DNA of 64,000 nucleotides from Herbiconiux sp. SALV-R1 (GTDB taxonomy: Bacteria; Actinomycetota; Actinomycetes; Actinomycetales; Microbacteriaceae), in contig NZ_CP053344.1 in NCBI RefSeq assembly GCF_013113715.1, positions 2,976,001 through 3,040,000 of the forward strand, given 5' to 3'. The position numbers and the translations under genes were made by a program. Below, piece by piece: positions 1-7,697 of this stretch; the first letter of the stretch is position 1; each line of letters begins with the position of its first letter. The notes beneath the pieces were generated by a model that ran no database searches, was not told where the DNA came from, and saw only the letters and a program-made list of their open reading frames with translations.

Positions 1-213
1 GGCGATCTTGTCGGGGCGGAAGCCCGACCAGTGGTCGCCCTCGGAGGTCATGACGACGGGGGCCTGCAGGTAGCCGAGCTCCTTGACCGTCTCAAGTGCC
101 TTCTCGTCGACCGAGAGGTCGAAGATCTCGAACTCCAGACCCTTGTTCTCGAGGGCGCGGTAGGTGGCAGTGCACTGAACGCAGGAGGGCTTCGTGTAGA
201 CCGTGATCGCCAT
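1..213 (-). CDS. nrdH: Glutaredoxin-like NrdH redoxin (C-terminus off the window edge)
   Basis: NrdH is the electron donor for class Ib ribonucleotide reductase (NrdEF) in the cytoplasm. The 71 visible residues start MAITVYTKPSC and carry the redox motif CVQC at residues 11-14, the NrdH form rather than CPYC of true glutaredoxins. The tail WSGFRPDKI matches the family's conserved C-terminal WSGFRPD. The ATG is preceded by GAAAGG about nine bases upstream. The stop lies beyond position 1; nrdI, nrdE and nrdF would be expected to follow on the same strand, outside this window. A pair of NrdR-type boxes lies upstream. Confidence 0.95.
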   Translation of the reverse strand, partial: MAITVYTKPSCVQCTATYRALENKGLEFEIFDLSVDEKALETVKELGYLQAPVVMTSEGDHWSGFRPDKIA

Positions 214-322: not shown

Positions 323-370
323 ATACTACATCTAGTTGTCGGCCAGAGCGAGCACCCCTAGATGAAGTGT
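323..370 (-). promoter_or_regulatory. Pair of NrdR boxes upstream of nrdH
   Basis: Two 12-bp cores, ACTACATCTAGT (325-336) and CCTAGATGAAGT (357-368), fit the NrdR box pattern (CTATATATAG-like with flanking ACA/TGT). Their centres are 32 bp apart, about three helical turns, the spacing usual for NrdR box pairs. The first box overlaps TAGTAT on the minus strand (323-328), a plausible -10 element. NrdR is known to repress nrd genes through ATP/dATP-sensing oligomers; its role here is inferred from the motif only. Confidence 0.75.
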
Positions 371-480
371 TACACCCGTGTAATTATCCACAGGCCATCC
401 ACAGCTGTGAACAGCTTTCTGCGCAGGGATCTCCACAAGCAGATCGGCCTGTTCTCGCCCTTCTCGGTCAGCCTGTGGAG
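370..480. promoter_or_regulatory. Inverted repeat plus DnaA-box cluster upstream of nrdH
   Basis: TTACACCCGTGTAA at 370-383 is a perfect 6-bp inverted repeat. It is followed directly by TTATCCACA (384-392, consensus DnaA box), CCATCCACA (395-403) and TGTGAACAG (406-414, complement one mismatch from TTGTTCACA). Weaker CTCCACA matches occur near 431 and 474. The stretch 214-523 contains no convincing gene. A possible role in DnaA-linked control of nrd is inference. Confidence 0.5.
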
Positions 481-523
481 AGACGACCCCTTCTTCCCTG
501 AGGATAAATTCGACCACCGACAT

Positions 524-1822
524 TCAGCGCGCCCGGCGTGTCGCGCGTGTCGCCCGGACGAGTGACACGGCGAGCGCCGCCAGGGCGAGCAGGGCGGGCA
601 CCAGCAGGTTGCCCCCGGCGAGCACCACCAGCCCGCCCACCAGCACCACCGACACCGCGGCGCACCACCACCCCGGCCCGAACCGGGGCAGCAGCCGAAG
701 CGCCGCCACCACGCCGAGTGCGTAGACGGCGACCATGCAGGAGGTGTGGATGAGGATGAACGGGGTCAGCTCCCCTCCGGTCAGCACCATCGCCGTGTAG
801 TAGCCGGCCGCCAGCAGCGCGACCACCCCGAGCGACCGGCGGGGCACTCCCCCGGCCTCGGCTCCCCGACCGAGCACGGCGGGCAGGTCGCCGTCGCGCC
901 CCAGCGAGGCGCCGAGCTTGGCGAAGGCCCCGAGGTAGGCGTTGAGCACCCCCACCGCGACGATGCCGGCCACGGAGGCGACGGCGAGGCGACCCCACGC
1001 GGGAGCCGTCGCGTCGACGAGGTCGAGGAGGGGCACCGGCGACGACCCCGCCGCGTCGCCGAGCACCGCCACGGTCACCAGCTGCAGGCCCAGGTAGCAG
1101 GCGCCCACCACCACGATCGCGATCGCCGTCGCCCAGGGAATGGTCGTGCGCGGCCGCCGGAACTCGCCGGCGATGTGCGTCACCGCCTCCCACCCGGCGA
1201 AGGCCCAGACGAACAGGCTGATCGCCGCTCCGACGCCGACCCAGCCGTGGGGGAGGAAGGGCTCGAAGTTCGCGCTGTCACCCGCCGGCGCGGCGATCAC
1301 GACAACGCCCACCACCACAGCGACCAGCAGCCCCGAGAGCGCGAGCTGCGCCCGCCCCGAGAAGCGCAGCCCGAACAGGTTCGACGCCAGCGGAAGGGCG
1401 ATGAGGGCGGGCGCCACGACGAACGCCACCCAGCGCTCCGCACCGAGCACGGCCACGAGGTACTCCGCGCCGAGCAGCGCGACCACCGGCGAGCCCACGC
1501 AGACCCCGAAGAAGAACCAGTAGCCGGCCATGCGCGCTGCCGTCGCCCCGAGTGCGAGACGCACGAAGGTGGCGACCCCGCCGGCATCCGGATGCCTCGC
1601 GGCGAGTGCGGCGAAGGTTCCCGCCAGCGGAACCGAGAGCACGATGAGCGCCAGCACGGCGAGGATCGACCCCGGCCCGGCCACCTGGGCGGCGAGCGCG
1701 GGGAGCACGAGGATGCCGGTGCCGAGCACCGCGGCTATGTAGAGAGCGGTGCCCTGCGCCAGCCCGACCGTGGCGTTCTCGGTCGTCGGCGGGGTGGAGC
1801 TGAGGTCGGTCTGAGTCGTCAC
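524..1822 (-). CDS. APC-family amino acid permease or exporter
   Basis: A 432-residue integral membrane protein of the amino acid-polyamine-organocation superfamily. The first helix carries the characteristic GTGILVLP (about residues 34-41), where unwound glycine turns bind the substrate backbone. About 12 hydrophobic segments follow, the usual number. The sequence style (LeuT fold, short loops, basic tail) resembles YjeH-type exporters of neutral amino acids, but the substrate cannot be read from sequence. The start is GTG at 1822 with a GAGGGG tract almost touching it, so the ribosome site is unusually close. It points away from the MarR gene and seems to be a single-gene unit. Confidence 0.85.
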   Translation of the reverse strand: MTTQTDLSSTPPTTENATVGLAQGTALYIAAVLGTGILVLPALAAQVAGPGSILAVLALIVLSVPLAGTFAALAARHPDAGGVATFVRLALGATAARMAGYWFFFGVCVGSPVVALLGAEYLVAVLGAERWVAFVVAPALIALPLASNLFGLRFSGRAQLALSGLLVAVVVGVVVIAAPAGDSANFEPFLPHGWVGVGAAISLFVWAFAGWEAVTHIAGEFRRPRTTIPWATAIAIVVVGACYLGLQLVTVAVLGDAAGSSPVPLLDLVDATAPAWGRLAVASVAGIVAVGVLNAYLGAFAKLGASLGRDGDLPAVLGRGAEAGGVPRRSLGVVALLAAGYYTAMVLTGGELTPFILIHTSCMVAVYALGVVAALRLLPRFGPGWWCAAVSVVLVGGLVVLAGGNLLVPALLALAALAVSLVRATRATRRAR

Positions 1823-2454: not shown

Positions 2455-3395
2455 GGCGCTGGGTTCTCGTGACGGCCACCGCACCGATCGCCTGGGGCTC
2501 GAACTACTTCGTCACCCGTCAGCTGCTGCCGGTGGACTCGCCGCTCTGGGGGGCCGTGCTGAGGGCGGTGCCGGCCGGGCTGGTGCTGGTGGCCCTTGCC
2601 CGAGAGCTCCCGCGCGGGTCGTGGTGGTGGAAGTCGATCGTGCTCGGGGTGCTCAACGTGGGGGCGTTCTTCGTGCTCATCTACGTCGTCTCCCAGCTGT
2701 TGCCGACGAGCCTCGCCGCCACCCTCATGGCCACCTCGGCCGGGGTGCTCATGCTCATCGCCTGGCCGCTCCTCGGCGAGCGACCGCAGCTGGTGCCCGT
2801 CGTGGGGATGCTGGTCGGGTCGACGGGAGTCGTGCTGATGCTCGGCGGAGGCGGAGGTCAGGGCACCGGGGGCCAGGGCGGCGCGGTCTCGGGGCTCGGC
2901 GTGCTCGCCTCCCTCGCCGCGATGCTGCTCTCCTCGGTCGGCTTCGTGCTCACCAAGAAGTGGGCGACGGGCGTTCGCACCCTCTCGCTCACGTCGTGGC
3001 AGCTCGTGGCGGGAGGCCTCGCCGTCGTGCCCGCGGCGATGGCGATCGAGGGCGCACCGCCCGCTCTCGACGCACCCGCGGTGGCGGGGTTCGCCTACGT
3101 GTCGCTCGTGGCGACCGCGCTCGCGTTCGTCGCATGGTTCACGGGCCTCAAGCACCTTCCCGCCGGCACGGTCGGGGTGGTCGGCCTGCTCAACCCCGTG
3201 ACGGGGGTGGTGCTCGGCACCCTGGTGGCGGGCGAGGCCTTCGGGCCCGCGCAGGCGGTGGGCACGGCACTCGTGCTGCTCGGTGTGCTCGCCGGGCGGG
3301 TGCGGTGGCGGCCGGGGCGGCCACGTCAGCCGCGGCCTCGGGTGTCAGCGGGCTCCGATAGAGTCGCCAGAACCCCAGGTAGAGGAGAGATGTGA
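2442..3395 (+). CDS. EamA/DMT-family transporter
   Basis: A 317-residue drug/metabolite transporter with ten predicted helices in two EamA repeats. The first begins TATAPIAWGSNYFVTRQLLP and the second near residue 155 (AAMLLSSVGFVLTKKWATG). The motif LNPVTGVVLG near the end is typical of YdcZ/RhaT-like DMT exporters. ATG at 2442 lies within the operator; AAGGAAG is 14 bases upstream, rather far, so translation may be weakly initiated or leaderless. It is the likely MarR target. Its stop overlaps the next gene by four bases (GTGA), suggesting coupling with the metallopeptidase. Confidence 0.85.
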   Translation: MEATWRWVLVTATAPIAWGSNYFVTRQLLPVDSPLWGAVLRAVPAGLVLVALARELPRGSWWWKSIVLGVLNVGAFFVLIYVVSQLLPTSLAATLMATSAGVLMLIAWPLLGERPQLVPVVGMLVGSTGVVLMLGGGGGQGTGGQGGAVSGLGVLASLAAMLLSSVGFVLTKKWATGVRTLSLTSWQLVAGGLAVVPAAMAIEGAPPALDAPAVAGFAYVSLVATALAFVAWFTGLKHLPAGTVGVVGLLNPVTGVVLGTLVAGEAFGPAQAVGTALVLLGVLAGRVRWRPGRPRQPRPRVSAGSDRVARTPGRGEM

Positions 3396-4984
3396 AGCGA
3401 CGCAGCACTTTCGGCGCAGCGACGGTGGGCGCGGTCGCGCTCGTGGCCGTGCTCGCCGGCTGCACGGGCATGAGCCCCGACCCCACCCCGACACCGACCG
3501 CCACCCCCGAGAGCCGCTACCAGCCCGGCGCCGCCGGCATCGGCGACCCCTACTACCCGCTCGACGGCAACGGCGGCTACGACGTGGAGCACTACGACCT
3601 CGAGCTCGCCTACGAGCCCGAGACGGGCGAACTCGCGGGCCGGGCCGTCGTCAGCGCCACCGCGACGCAAGACCTGTCGCGCTTCGACCTCGACCTCGAC
3701 GGGCTCATGGTCACCCGCGTCACCGTCGACGACGTCGACACCGAGTTCACCACCGAGACCTTCGAGATCAGCGCGGCGACCGGGCAGCCCGTCGACCAGG
3801 AGGCGGGCGACGAGGGCGCCGCCCCCGGCGACGACGACGCGGGCGACGACCGCGAAGAACTCGCCCAGCCCGGGCGCACCGAGCTCATCGTCACCCCCGC
3901 CACGGGCATCGACGACGGGTCTGCCTTCACGGTCGCCGTCGAGTACGGCGGAGTGCCCGCCACCATCGACGACACCTTCGGCTACGGCGGAGTCGTACGC
4001 ACCGCCGACGGCGCGGTGATCGTGGGTCAGCCGCGCGTCGCCGCGACCTGGTTCCCGGCCAACGACCACCCCGCCGACAAAGCGACCTTCCGCATCCGCA
4101 TGTCGGTGCCCGAAGGGCTGCAGGCCATCTCGAACGGGCGGCTCGTCGGTGCGGTCACCGAAGACGGCCGCACCGACTGGGAGTGGGTGATGGAGAAGCC
4201 GATGGCGACCTACCTCGCCACGGCGACGGTGGGCGACTTCGCGGTGTCGACGCTCTCGCAAGACGGCATCGACTACTGGAACGCCGTCGGCAGCGGCCTC
4301 TACGACGAGGTGGCGGTGGAGGCGACCGGGCAGAGCTACGGCGACCTCGCCGACCTGGCGTTCGCCCGCGGGCCCGAGATCACCGCGTTCCTCACCTCCC
4401 GCTTCGGCCCCTACCCGTTCACCGAGTCGGGAGGCATCGCGGTGAACCTCGACGACCTCGACTACGCGCTCGAGAACCAGACTCGGCCCATCTACGGCCC
4501 GTGGGTGTTCGAGGGCCCGGAGGGCCTGTCGACGGTGGTGCACGAGCTCGCCCACCAGTGGTTCGGCGACAGCCTGTCGATCGCGGCCTGGAGCGACATC
4601 TGGCTCAACGAGAGCTTCGCCACCTATGCGGAGTGGCTCTGGTCGGAAGATCAGGGCGGCCAGACCGCGCAGCAGATCTTCGACTTCCTCGACGACCAGC
4701 CCGCCACCGACCCGTTCTGGACTCTCGAGATCGGCGACCCCGGCCCCGCGCGGGTGTTCGACGAGGCCGTCTACAACCGCGGTGCGATGACGCTGCACGC
4801 GCTCAGACTGAAGCTCGGCGACGAGGTCTTCTTCCCGGCCGTGCAGTCGTGGGCCGCCGAGAACGCCTACGGCACGGTCTCCACCGATGACTTCATCGCC
4901 TACATGGAGGAGGCCTCGGGGAGCGACCTCGGCGACTTCTTCGACACCTGGTTGTTCACCGGCTCGAAGCCGACCGCCGGCTGA
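3392..4984 (+). CDS. M1-family metallopeptidase lipoprotein
   Basis: A 530-residue secreted zinc aminopeptidase-like protein. The N-terminus is a lipoprotein signal with lipobox LAGC around residue 24, then a Pro/Thr linker. The M1 N-terminal beta domain contains HYDLELAYEPETGELAG. The catalytic domain holds HELAH at residues 384-388 and the third zinc ligand Glu407 in WLNES, giving HExxH-18-E exactly. The GAMEN substrate loop reads YALENQT. An acidic insert (GDEGAAPGDDDAGDD) sits near residues 135-150. Length is short for M1, lacking the C-terminal ARM domain. GTG at 3392 has AGGAG six bases upstream. A paralogue lies at 5955. Confidence 0.9.
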   Translation: MKRRSTFGAATVGAVALVAVLAGCTGMSPDPTPTPTATPESRYQPGAAGIGDPYYPLDGNGGYDVEHYDLELAYEPETGELAGRAVVSATATQDLSRFDLDLDGLMVTRVTVDDVDTEFTTETFEISAATGQPVDQEAGDEGAAPGDDDAGDDREELAQPGRTELIVTPATGIDDGSAFTVAVEYGGVPATIDDTFGYGGVVRTADGAVIVGQPRVAATWFPANDHPADKATFRIRMSVPEGLQAISNGRLVGAVTEDGRTDWEWVMEKPMATYLATATVGDFAVSTLSQDGIDYWNAVGSGLYDEVAVEATGQSYGDLADLAFARGPEITAFLTSRFGPYPFTESGGIAVNLDDLDYALENQTRPIYGPWVFEGPEGLSTVVHELAHQWFGDSLSIAAWSDIWLNESFATYAEWLWSEDQGGQTAQQIFDFLDDQPATDPFWTLEIGDPGPARVFDEAVYNRGAMTLHALRLKLGDEVFFPAVQSWAAENAYGTVSTDDFIAYMEEASGSDLGDFFDTWLFTGSKPTAG

Positions 4985-5837: not shown

Positions 5838-5954
5838 GAAGACTAGCGGATGCGCGCGAGACCCGGCGAGCATCCGCTCTGTTCCACCATGCGGCCGAGA
5901 CCCTATGCTGGGGCTCTCCCAGCTCCGTTCCCTCGACACGATCGGCGAGCATCC

Positions 5955-7697
5955 ATGAACTCCTGCGAACTGGCGGCCACCGGCTCGGGCCCGCTCCCTC
6001 TCGTTCTGCTCGCCCTCGCGGTGGCGGCCGTCGGCGGCGGCGCCGCCTGGCTCCTCGTGAGTCGTCGCCGTCGGCGCGGTGCGATCACCCTGGCCGCGCT
6101 GCCGCTGCTCGTGCTGGCCCTCGTCGTGGGCGGCGGGGGTCTCGCACCGCAGCCGGCGAGCGCCGCCGCACCGTGCCCTCCCACCACGTCACCATCTCCG
6201 CAGCCCACCCCCGAGCCGACACCGACGCCCACCCCGGTGCCGGTCGACTACGTGGCGGGCGCCGCCGGCATCGGCGACCCCTACTACCCGCTCGACGGCA
6301 ACGGCGGCTACGACGTGCAGCACTACGACCTCGACCTCTCGTACGAGCCCGCCACCGGTGTGCTCTCCGGTTCCGCCACCATCGAGGCGGTCGCCACCGA
6401 GAACCTCTCCTCGTTCAACCTCGACTTCGACACCCGCGCCGTCGATGGCAGCGACGCCCTCGCCATCGAGTCGGTCACCGTCGACGGGGCCGCCGCCGAG
6501 TGGAGCCTCGCGAGCACCCAGATCAGCATCGTCACCGGCCAGCCGCAGCTGCCCGGGTCGACCGACGGCGACGCCACACCGCCGCGAACCGAGCTCACGG
6601 TCGTTCCCGGCACGGGCATTCCGACCGGCAGTACGATCACGACGACGGTGGTCTACAGCGGGGTGCCCATCACCATCGACGACGCGTTCGGGCCGGCGGG
6701 CGTGTTCCGCTCGACCGACGGCGCCGTCGTGGTAGGCCAACCGCGCGTCGCCGCCACCTGGTTCCCGGCGAACGACCACCCCTCCGACAAGGCGACCTTC
6801 ACCACCACCATGTCGGTGCCCGAGGGGCTCACCGTGGTGGGCAACGGCAGGCTCGCCGACGAGTCGTCGGCGGGCGGCCGCACCAGCTTCACGTGGGAGA
6901 TGGAGAAGCCCATGGCCACCTACCTCGCCACGGCGACTGTCGGCGACTACGACATCACCACCTCCACGGTCGACGGCATCACCTACTACGACGCCATCGA
7001 CCCGGCCCTCTACTCGGTCGAGGCCGACGGCGGTGGCACGACGGTCGGCGACGTGGCGGCCGCCATCTTCGCGACAGAGCCCGAGGTCATCGACTTCCTC
7101 GAGCAGTCGTTCGGCCCGTACCCGTTCAGCGAAGCGGGCGGCATCGCCATCGCCGATCTCGCCGACGGCCAGCCGCTCCCCTACGCGCTCGAGAACCAGA
7201 CCAGGCCGATCTACCCGAGCTGGTCGTTCCCCGCCGACGCCGATGCCTCGGTGGTCGTGCACGAACTCGCCCACCAGTGGTACGGCGACGACGTCTCGAT
7301 GCACCGCTGGAGCGACATCTGGCTGAACGAAGGCTTCGCCACCTACGCCGAATGGCTCTGGGCCGAGCACACCGGCGGCCCGACCCCGCAGCAGAGCTTC
7401 GACGACGCCTACTCCTCGGCGCCCGACGCGTTCTGGACGACGGAGATCGCCGACCCGGGAGCGGCCGGCATCTTCGACGCCCCCGTGTACGTGCGCGGGG
7501 CCATGACGCTGCAGGCGCTGCGCACGGCCGTCGGTGACGACGACTTCTTCGCCATCCTGCAGGGCTGGGCGGCCGGGCACGCCGGCGGCTCGGGCTCGAC
7601 CGCAGAGTTCGTCTCCTACGCGGAGTCGGTCTCGGGCGACGACCTCACGGCGCTGTTCGACGCGTGGATCTACTCCGGCACGAAGCCGGCGGTGTAG
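5955..7697 (+). CDS. M1-family metallopeptidase, membrane-anchored paralogue
   Basis: A 580-residue paralogue of the peptidase at 3392. Two hydrophobic segments (about residues 14-36 and 45-60) precede a Pro/Thr linker, so the enzyme is probably tethered to the membrane facing outward. It repeats the other enzyme's landmarks almost word for word: AAGIGDPYYPLDGNGGYDV, VVGQPRVAATWFPANDHP, YALENQTRPIY, HELAH at 436-440 and Glu459 in WLNEG, again HExxH-18-E. ATG at 5955 is chosen because the frame upstream lacks a signal sequence; GGCGAG lies about five bases before it. The pair probably arose by duplication, with the iron gene trapped between. Confidence 0.88.
   Translation: MNSCELAATGSGPLPLVLLALAVAAVGGGAAWLLVSRRRRRGAITLAALPLLVLALVVGGGGLAPQPASAAAPCPPTTSPSPQPTPEPTPTPTPVPVDYVAGAAGIGDPYYPLDGNGGYDVQHYDLDLSYEPATGVLSGSATIEAVATENLSSFNLDFDTRAVDGSDALAIESVTVDGAAAEWSLASTQISIVTGQPQLPGSTDGDATPPRTELTVVPGTGIPTGSTITTTVVYSGVPITIDDAFGPAGVFRSTDGAVVVGQPRVAATWFPANDHPSDKATFTTTMSVPEGLTVVGNGRLADESSAGGRTSFTWEMEKPMATYLATATVGDYDITTSTVDGITYYDAIDPALYSVEADGGGTTVGDVAAAIFATEPEVIDFLEQSFGPYPFSEAGGIAIADLADGQPLPYALENQTRPIYPSWSFPADADASVVVHELAHQWYGDDVSMHRWSDIWLNEGFATYAEWLWAEHTGGPTPQQSFDDAYSSAPDAFWTTEIADPGAAGIFDAPVYVRGAMTLQALRTAVGDDDFFAILQGWAAGHAGGSGSTAEFVSYAESVSGDDLTALFDAWIYSGTKPAV

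Follow-up and report, generated by a model that had tools for sequence, protein, structure and literature searches.

A conserved, predicted multi-input control region upstream of the nrdH-led ribonucleotide reductase operon in Herbiconiux

Which regulators are likely to meet at the promoter of an nrdH-led ribonucleotide reductase operon, and do the DnaA-box-like words and the inverted repeat beside it belong to its control? To our knowledge, the matching of dNTP supply to replication, division and DNA damage has been little studied in actinobacteria. The locus considered here lies at one end of a 64-kb stretch, the window, of a Herbiconiux genome of 4.52 Mb. Of eight named loci whose NrdH is 97-100% identical, seven belong to Herbiconiux (family Microbacteriaceae). 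The nrdH product matches NCBIfam TIGR02194 (101 bits, cut-off 85.75), and downstream of the gene, outside the window, a ribonucleotide reductase large-subunit frame carries the Pfam RNR_N and RNR large-chain domains (L155). The region between nrdH and an amino-acid permease frame (524-1822, Pfam match; both on the same strand) spans positions 214-523. The initial annotation had pointed to a perfect DnaA box directly after an inverted repeat, with two near matches within 31 bp. In our view this block probably forms the core of a region where several regulatory inputs act on the class Ib operon, by the mechanism proposed below.

Layout of the predicted sites

Read on the nrd strand, the predicted sites stand in the order WhiB2/WhiA motif, PafBC-type promoter, DnaA-box cluster, McdR-type operator, distal NrdR box, and proximal NrdR box with a -10 element [Table 1]. 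The genome encodes DnaA, NrdR, McdR, WhiB, PafB, and PafC. The two NrdR boxes, the PafBC-type promoter and the WhiB2/WhiA motif had no place in the initial annotation of this block.

Table 1. Predicted sites upstream of nrdH. Positions are those of the window; column invariance refers to 16 Herbiconiux nrdH regions.
Feature	Position	Strand	Sequence	Remarks
nrdH (NrdH redoxin)	1..213	-		First gene of class Ib ribonucleotide reductase operon; truncated by window end
Proximal NrdR box	323..338	-	CAACTAGATGTAGTAT	14/16 columns invariant
Distal NrdR box	355..370	-	ACACTTCATCTAGGGG	15/16 columns invariant
McdR-type operator	368..385	-	AATTACACGGGTGTAACA (nrd strand)	10/12 fixed positions of AATnACAnnnnTGTnATT; 16/18 columns invariant
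Perfect DnaA box	384-392	+	TTATCCACA	9/9 columns invariant
Near match to DnaA box	395-403	+	CCATCCACA	2 mismatches; 0/9 columns invariant
Weak DnaA-like box	406-414	-	CTGTTCACA	3 mismatches; 5/9 columns invariant
DnaA-like box	429-437	+	ATCTCCACA	2 mismatches; 6/9 columns invariant
DnaA-like box	474-482	-	CTCTCCACA	2 mismatches; 7/9 columns invariant
PafBC-type promoter (predicted; RecA-independent, DNA-damage)	501..522	-	TGTCGG-N10-TATCCT	TGTCRG-N10-TANNNT in 16/16 Herbiconiux loci
WhiB2/WhiA motif	535..544	-	GCGACACGCC	Within last codons of permease frame; CGACACGC in 16/16 Herbiconiux loci

Conservation was scored in 131 nrdH upstream regions. The 126 from Microbacteriaceae (43 genera) underlie all family counts; the other five (L042, L043, L142, L143, and L144), which belong to other families of the window's order and are among the matches listed, were scored separately. 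At the threshold used, 84 of 199 family genomes gave no NrdH match, and 19 low-similarity rows, mostly second copies, lie outside the sample. Among the 126 is L117, a second copy within its genome that shows no convincing NrdR pair. The 16 Herbiconiux regions come from a scan covering 44 of 80 named loci; among them the spacers show 0.46-0.70 identity and the motifs are nearly invariant. Outside the order, NrdH matches were obtained in one family only (f22, 14 loci in 13 genomes), which we take to be mycobacteria-type, while 127 of 148 genomes gave no match.

NrdR boxes were called with what we take to be the NrdR consensus. In the window the two boxes stand 32 bp apart, about three helical turns, and the genome carries an nrdR gene (TIGR00244, above cut-off). 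The best-scoring pair has a spacing of 31 or 32 bp in 128 of the 131 loci, not every one of these pairs being convincing. The TAGTAT within the proximal box (323-328) is likely the -10 element of a predicted proximal promoter.

The inverted repeat as a candidate McdR operator

McdR (ResR, Rv1830) is a mycobacterial MerR-type regulator, proposed to be a cell-cycle checkpoint protein, that binds AATnACAnnnnTGTnATT and represses whiB2; WhiB2 in turn activates mcdR via cGACACGc (PMC9040748). The inverted repeat TTACACCCGTGTAA (370-383) falls within a site of this type, which has the correct 4-bp spacer and shares 3 bp with the distal NrdR box and 2 bp with the perfect DnaA box. The suggestion in the initial annotation that another protein might bind at the TTACAC repeat is supported by this match to a published operator together with the presence of an McdR ortholog in the genome. 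A site with at least 10 of the 12 McdR positions is found in 103 of the 126 family loci (35 genera; 0.9 expected); in 93 of these 103 it lies 15 or 16 bp ahead of the distal NrdR box. The remaining 23 loci score below 10, 14 of them scoring 9 in register. Among the five listed loci from other families of the order, the site is in register in two. Two other assignments of the repeat were set aside: it showed no match to the NrdR consensus by eye and was rejected as a third NrdR box, and an MtrA site was dropped once the McdR motif had been found. MtrA sites are direct repeats.

The window genome carries AAYTACANNNNTGTAAY at four loci, namely nrdH, whiB, phoH and near a gene that we take to be jag, with no occurrence of the reversed control. 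The same word stands at nrdH and whiB in all seven genomes searched and at phoH in six of them. The whiB site, AATTACATAACTGTAATT, agrees with all 12 McdR positions; in mycobacteria, too, the operator lies at whiB. The WhiB in question matches the WhiB of PDB 8dy7 and 8dy9, presumably that of Streptomyces, at about 126 bits, other Wbl proteins reaching at most 61. The McdR ortholog (G000:C1:1336516-1337061) has an FHA gene and a further MerR gene in its neighborhood, and each of the 18 genomes chosen for comparison encodes an ortholog. Upstream of the window genome's mcdR ortholog stands GCGACACGCC, and CGACACGC, on either strand, precedes the ortholog in 14 of the 18 genomes (1.19 expected). 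Moreover, the residues at the published Rv1830 SNP sites (I73, I76, T77, Q80, A85, V90, and A97; PMC9040748) recur as a spaced pattern, with 7/7 positions in the mycobacteria-type orthologs and 6/7 in the Herbiconiux protein (A at 73); this is a pattern fit made without alignment to Rv1830.

Might the repeat instead serve as the operator of some other protein with a similar half-site? The nrdH site is imperfect, at 10 rather than 12 McdR positions, and TTACA-N4-TGTAA is a simple dyad. Furthermore, the word TTACANNNNTGTAA occurs at seven places in the window genome (none for the reversed control), two of which adjoin genes that we take to be LacI-type (L151 and L153) and one a presumed transport-type gene (L150). 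None of these three matches AAYTACANNNNTGTAAY, and they look unrelated to the McdR-type set. Against another protein speaks the occurrence of the same motif at whiB, the target demonstrated in mycobacteria. The published loop, moreover, is represented on both its sides, with an McdR-type site at whiB and a WhiB2 motif upstream of mcdR. Collectively, these data render a protein other than McdR unlikely.

The McdR-type site upstream of phoH is found in six Herbiconiux genomes of the seven searched (G000:C1:2144030-2144046, L161; L165, L166, L179, L181, and L183), and phoH may be a further McdR target. A site with 12/12 positions downstream of the presumed jag gene near oriC (G000:C1:3944281-3944298, L185) occurs in the window genome alone among the seven. 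The word "nrd" is absent from the main text of the McdR literature examined.

DnaA boxes and their fusion to the McdR-type operator

A single exact copy of TTATCCACA is present in the 64-kb window; with up to one mismatch there are six matches, against a shuffle mean of 1.44, and none of 100 shuffles reached six. Genome-wide, 13 exact copies compare with 4 for the reversed control word, and the single-genome excess is thus only mild. Seven of the 13 fall at 3.925-3.963 Mb, where a 20-kb stretch holds dnaA and dnaN (Pfam). Since copies stand upstream of dnaA and in the dnaA-dnaN gap, the host origin region (oriC) uses this word. Predicted boxes of the host type are clustered at the reductase promoter.

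The family supplies a stronger signal. Over the 220 nt that precede the distal NrdR box, the 126 loci carry 235 DnaA boxes with up to one mismatch, against 4.2 expected by shuffling, and 60 exact boxes against 0.1. Boxes occur in 113 loci, and 105 have one to three. A control stretch 400-620 nt upstream (full length in 107 loci; 26,730 nt as compared with 27,720 nt tested) contains none, which removes the concern raised at the outset that such boxes might be common at random sites; the expectation that they would be conserved upstream of nrdH in Microbacteriaceae is borne out as well. Thirteen family loci, including those of the reduced-genome genera g11 and g13 and of genus g86, lack a box, and the DnaA input is therefore dispensable. 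The five listed loci from other families of the order have 1, 1, 2, 2, and 0 boxes.

Within Herbiconiux the individual boxes differ. The perfect box and the inverted repeat are where they had been reported, conserved and far above chance. Both near matches are also present, but the one at 395-403 is not conserved and was rejected as a functional box, and the one at 406-414 is partly kept. The initial annotation had missed the boxes at 429-437 and 474-482, both partly conserved; the latter has a mean identity of 0.97 over the 16 loci, as compared with 0.47 and 0.55 for the flanking spacers.

In 64 of 101 loci aligned in register (21 genera), a DnaA box with up to one mismatch is fused to the McdR-type operator, the last two bases of the box being the first two of the McdR half-site. 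The fusion, TGGGGATAATyACA, recurs between crgA and a rhomboid gene, which converge on each other (Pfam for L171); in the window genome this gap lies some 12 kb from dnaA. There (L187:16142-16206, G000:C1), two perfect DnaA boxes accompany TTATCCCCA, which is fused to an McdR-type site with 12/12 positions. Such a composite was found in four genomes (L167, L171, L177, and L187) of seven searched with a narrower pattern; this pattern misses the AATCACA form, which was found by eye in the crgA-rhomboid gap of the window genome. That the pair turns up again between convergent genes suggests a role for the pairing as such, and the gap is a possible DnaA control locus. In genus g5 (Frondihabitans; L030, L045, L048, and L056), by eye, the DnaA box stands about 14 bp from the McdR-type site and is not fused to it.

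These features raise the possibility, which we put forward tentatively and with more doubt than confidence, that at nrd and near oriC, in the crgA-rhomboid gap, the fused box and operator act as a switch dedicated to two proteins, DnaA and McdR, which would bind in a mutually exclusive (or cooperative) way. In this scenario, McdR would read or set initiator occupancy while controlling whiB and nrd, and the division checkpoint, the initiator and dNTP supply would be directly joined. Were a similar link present in mycobacteria, it would go some way toward accounting for the higher origin-proximal copy number of M. smegmatis on McdR overexpression (PMC9040748).

The fused box, TGTGGATAAT, can also be read as a promoter -10 element kept for transcription and not for DnaA binding. 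TTCACA, at the 406-414 box, and GATAAT (383-388) 17 bp further on form a sigma-70-like promoter (TTCACA-N17-GATAAT) with a 10/12 match, where shuffling predicts 0.0. Such a promoter would place McdR close to the transcription start, its published position at whiB2 (PMC9040748). However, the promoter-like form is confined to 18 of the 101 in-register loci and three genera including Herbiconiux, as compared with 64 loci and 21 genera for the DnaA box, and it is therefore unable to explain the family-wide conservation. GATAAC, GAAAAC, and GAGAAC are common at the -10 spot, and boxes elsewhere in the cluster contribute to the DnaA-box enrichment. A purely promoter-based role is rather improbable, while in Herbiconiux itself the promoter and DnaA-box readings may both hold.

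Could the boxes instead serve to titrate or reactivate DnaA, in the manner of datA or DARS, and lie at nrd by coincidence? In favor are the several boxes within a short stretch and the second DnaA-McdR cluster between convergent genes, where promoter control is unlikely. The number of boxes per locus is low, however. Given the shortness of the cluster and the register of its fused box with the promoter operators, a pure reservoir is quite improbable. That AT-rich words merely arose by chance in an intergenic region, a reading to which the mild single-genome count of TTATCCACA lends a little weight, is refuted by the family-wide controls and conservation and has next to no probability, in agreement with the initial view that the box was unlikely to be accidental.

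Distal inputs, proposed mechanism and evolutionary depth

The PafBC motif is TGTCGG-10N-TA-3N-T (PMC8151990), and the element at 501-522 fits it. The form TGTCRG-N10-TANNNT is present in 65 of the 126 family loci (24 genera; 0.36 expected; four on the opposite strand) and absent from the other 61, as well as from all five listed loci of other families of the order. PafB and PafC of the window genome are neighboring WYL proteins that both match PDB 6sj9. A match to TTATCCTCA at 499-507 was rejected as a DnaA box, since it fits better as the -10 (TATCCT, 501-506) of the PafBC-type promoter.

The WhiB2/WhiA motif CGACACGC occurs on the nrd strand in 103 of the 126 family loci (37 genera; 1.84 expected; nine on the opposite strand) and in all five listed loci from other families. 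Genome-wide, GCGACACGCC is not over-represented (27 copies vs 33 for the reversed control), and because of this the word proves nothing in one genome; only its conserved place does. In Streptomyces, binding is confined to a small fraction of GACAC words (PMC4850268).

The sites, their registers, their conservation and the presence of the regulator genes are established directly. From these we infer binding of the proteins at their sites, competition where sites overlap, and the direction of each effect. In the resulting model, NrdR would repress the proximal promoter when dNTPs are plentiful, and DnaA, bound just upstream, would tune nrd to replication initiation. McdR would probably compete with DnaA and/or NrdR, given the overlap of its operator with both sites, and would gate nrd to the division cycle; its effect is more likely repressive, by analogy with whiB2. 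After DNA damage, PafBC would raise nrd transcription. Since the predicted sites are packed together and kept across the family, the control region may be where the cell matches DNA-precursor supply to the cell cycle.

In E. coli, DnaA is an established regulator at nrdAB, and control of this kind has been proposed for B. subtilis and C. crescentus (PMC8203912); NrdR likewise acts at E. coli nrdAB (PMC12176259). As in E. coli (PMC8203912), whose nrdAB promoter also involves Fis and IciA, DnaA and NrdR boxes are combined at a ribonucleotide reductase promoter. The Herbiconiux operon differs in being class Ib and nrdH-led, in the fusion of a DnaA box to an McdR-type operator, and in the added PafBC and WhiB2/WhiA motifs. 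The operator at whiB and cGACACGc at mcdR reproduce the sites of the mycobacterial McdR-WhiB2 feedback loop in another order of Actinomycetes, whereas nrd is a new predicted target, with an operator fused to NrdR and DnaA sites. The PafBC-type element resembles mycobacterial PafBC-dependent (RecA-NDp) promoters, and both PafB and PafC are present; however, it forms a separate distal promoter in Herbiconiux, unlike the NrdR-covered -10 position that the motif takes in 16 of the 65 family loci having it (16/126 overall) and in 11/14 mycobacteria-type loci. In Streptomyces, WhiA is reported to repress nrdR (PMC3781837), which likewise links a GACAC motif to control of dNTP supply, but in Herbiconiux the motif sits at the reductase operon itself.

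Among the matches listed for the open-access literature searched (main texts), none placed McdR or DnaA at an nrd operon of an actinobacterium, and none described overlapping sites for these five inputs or predicted nrd as a target of McdR; nothing useful emerged on Streptomyces DnaA-box clusters. The sites of this predicted control region are real and conserved, and the DnaA-McdR composite site is possibly new. One promoter can now be named where five known regulators are predicted to meet, each through a short, separately testable stretch, and nrd joins the predicted targets of McdR/ResR, a protein linked to drug resilience in M. tuberculosis (PMC10336103).

How old is this arrangement? Of the mycobacteria-type loci, 12/14 have an McdR-like site 16-17 bp ahead of the distal NrdR box (0.07 loci expected), and in the 11 noted above the PafBC motif coincides with the -10 (0.01 expected); CGACACGC is present in 11/14 (0.43 expected) and DnaA boxes in 0/14. 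Because these loci mostly keep the McdR, PafBC and WhiB2 motifs without DnaA boxes, the DnaA cluster seems to have been added within the window's own order. Judging from the one family seen outside the order, the predicted NrdR, McdR, PafBC and WhiB2 inputs seem old, the DnaA cluster more recent. Among loci L138-L141 and L135-L137, the reduced-genome genera g11 and g13 have neither DnaA box nor McdR-type site at nrdH, and genus g86 has kept the McdR-type site with no DnaA box.

Two further observations concern the same genome. A second, divergent nrdH-like gene lies on a small contig (G000:C2:58634-58837), and the window contains two similar M1-family metallopeptidase frames near each other (3392-4984 and 5850-7697; Pfam Peptidase_M1).
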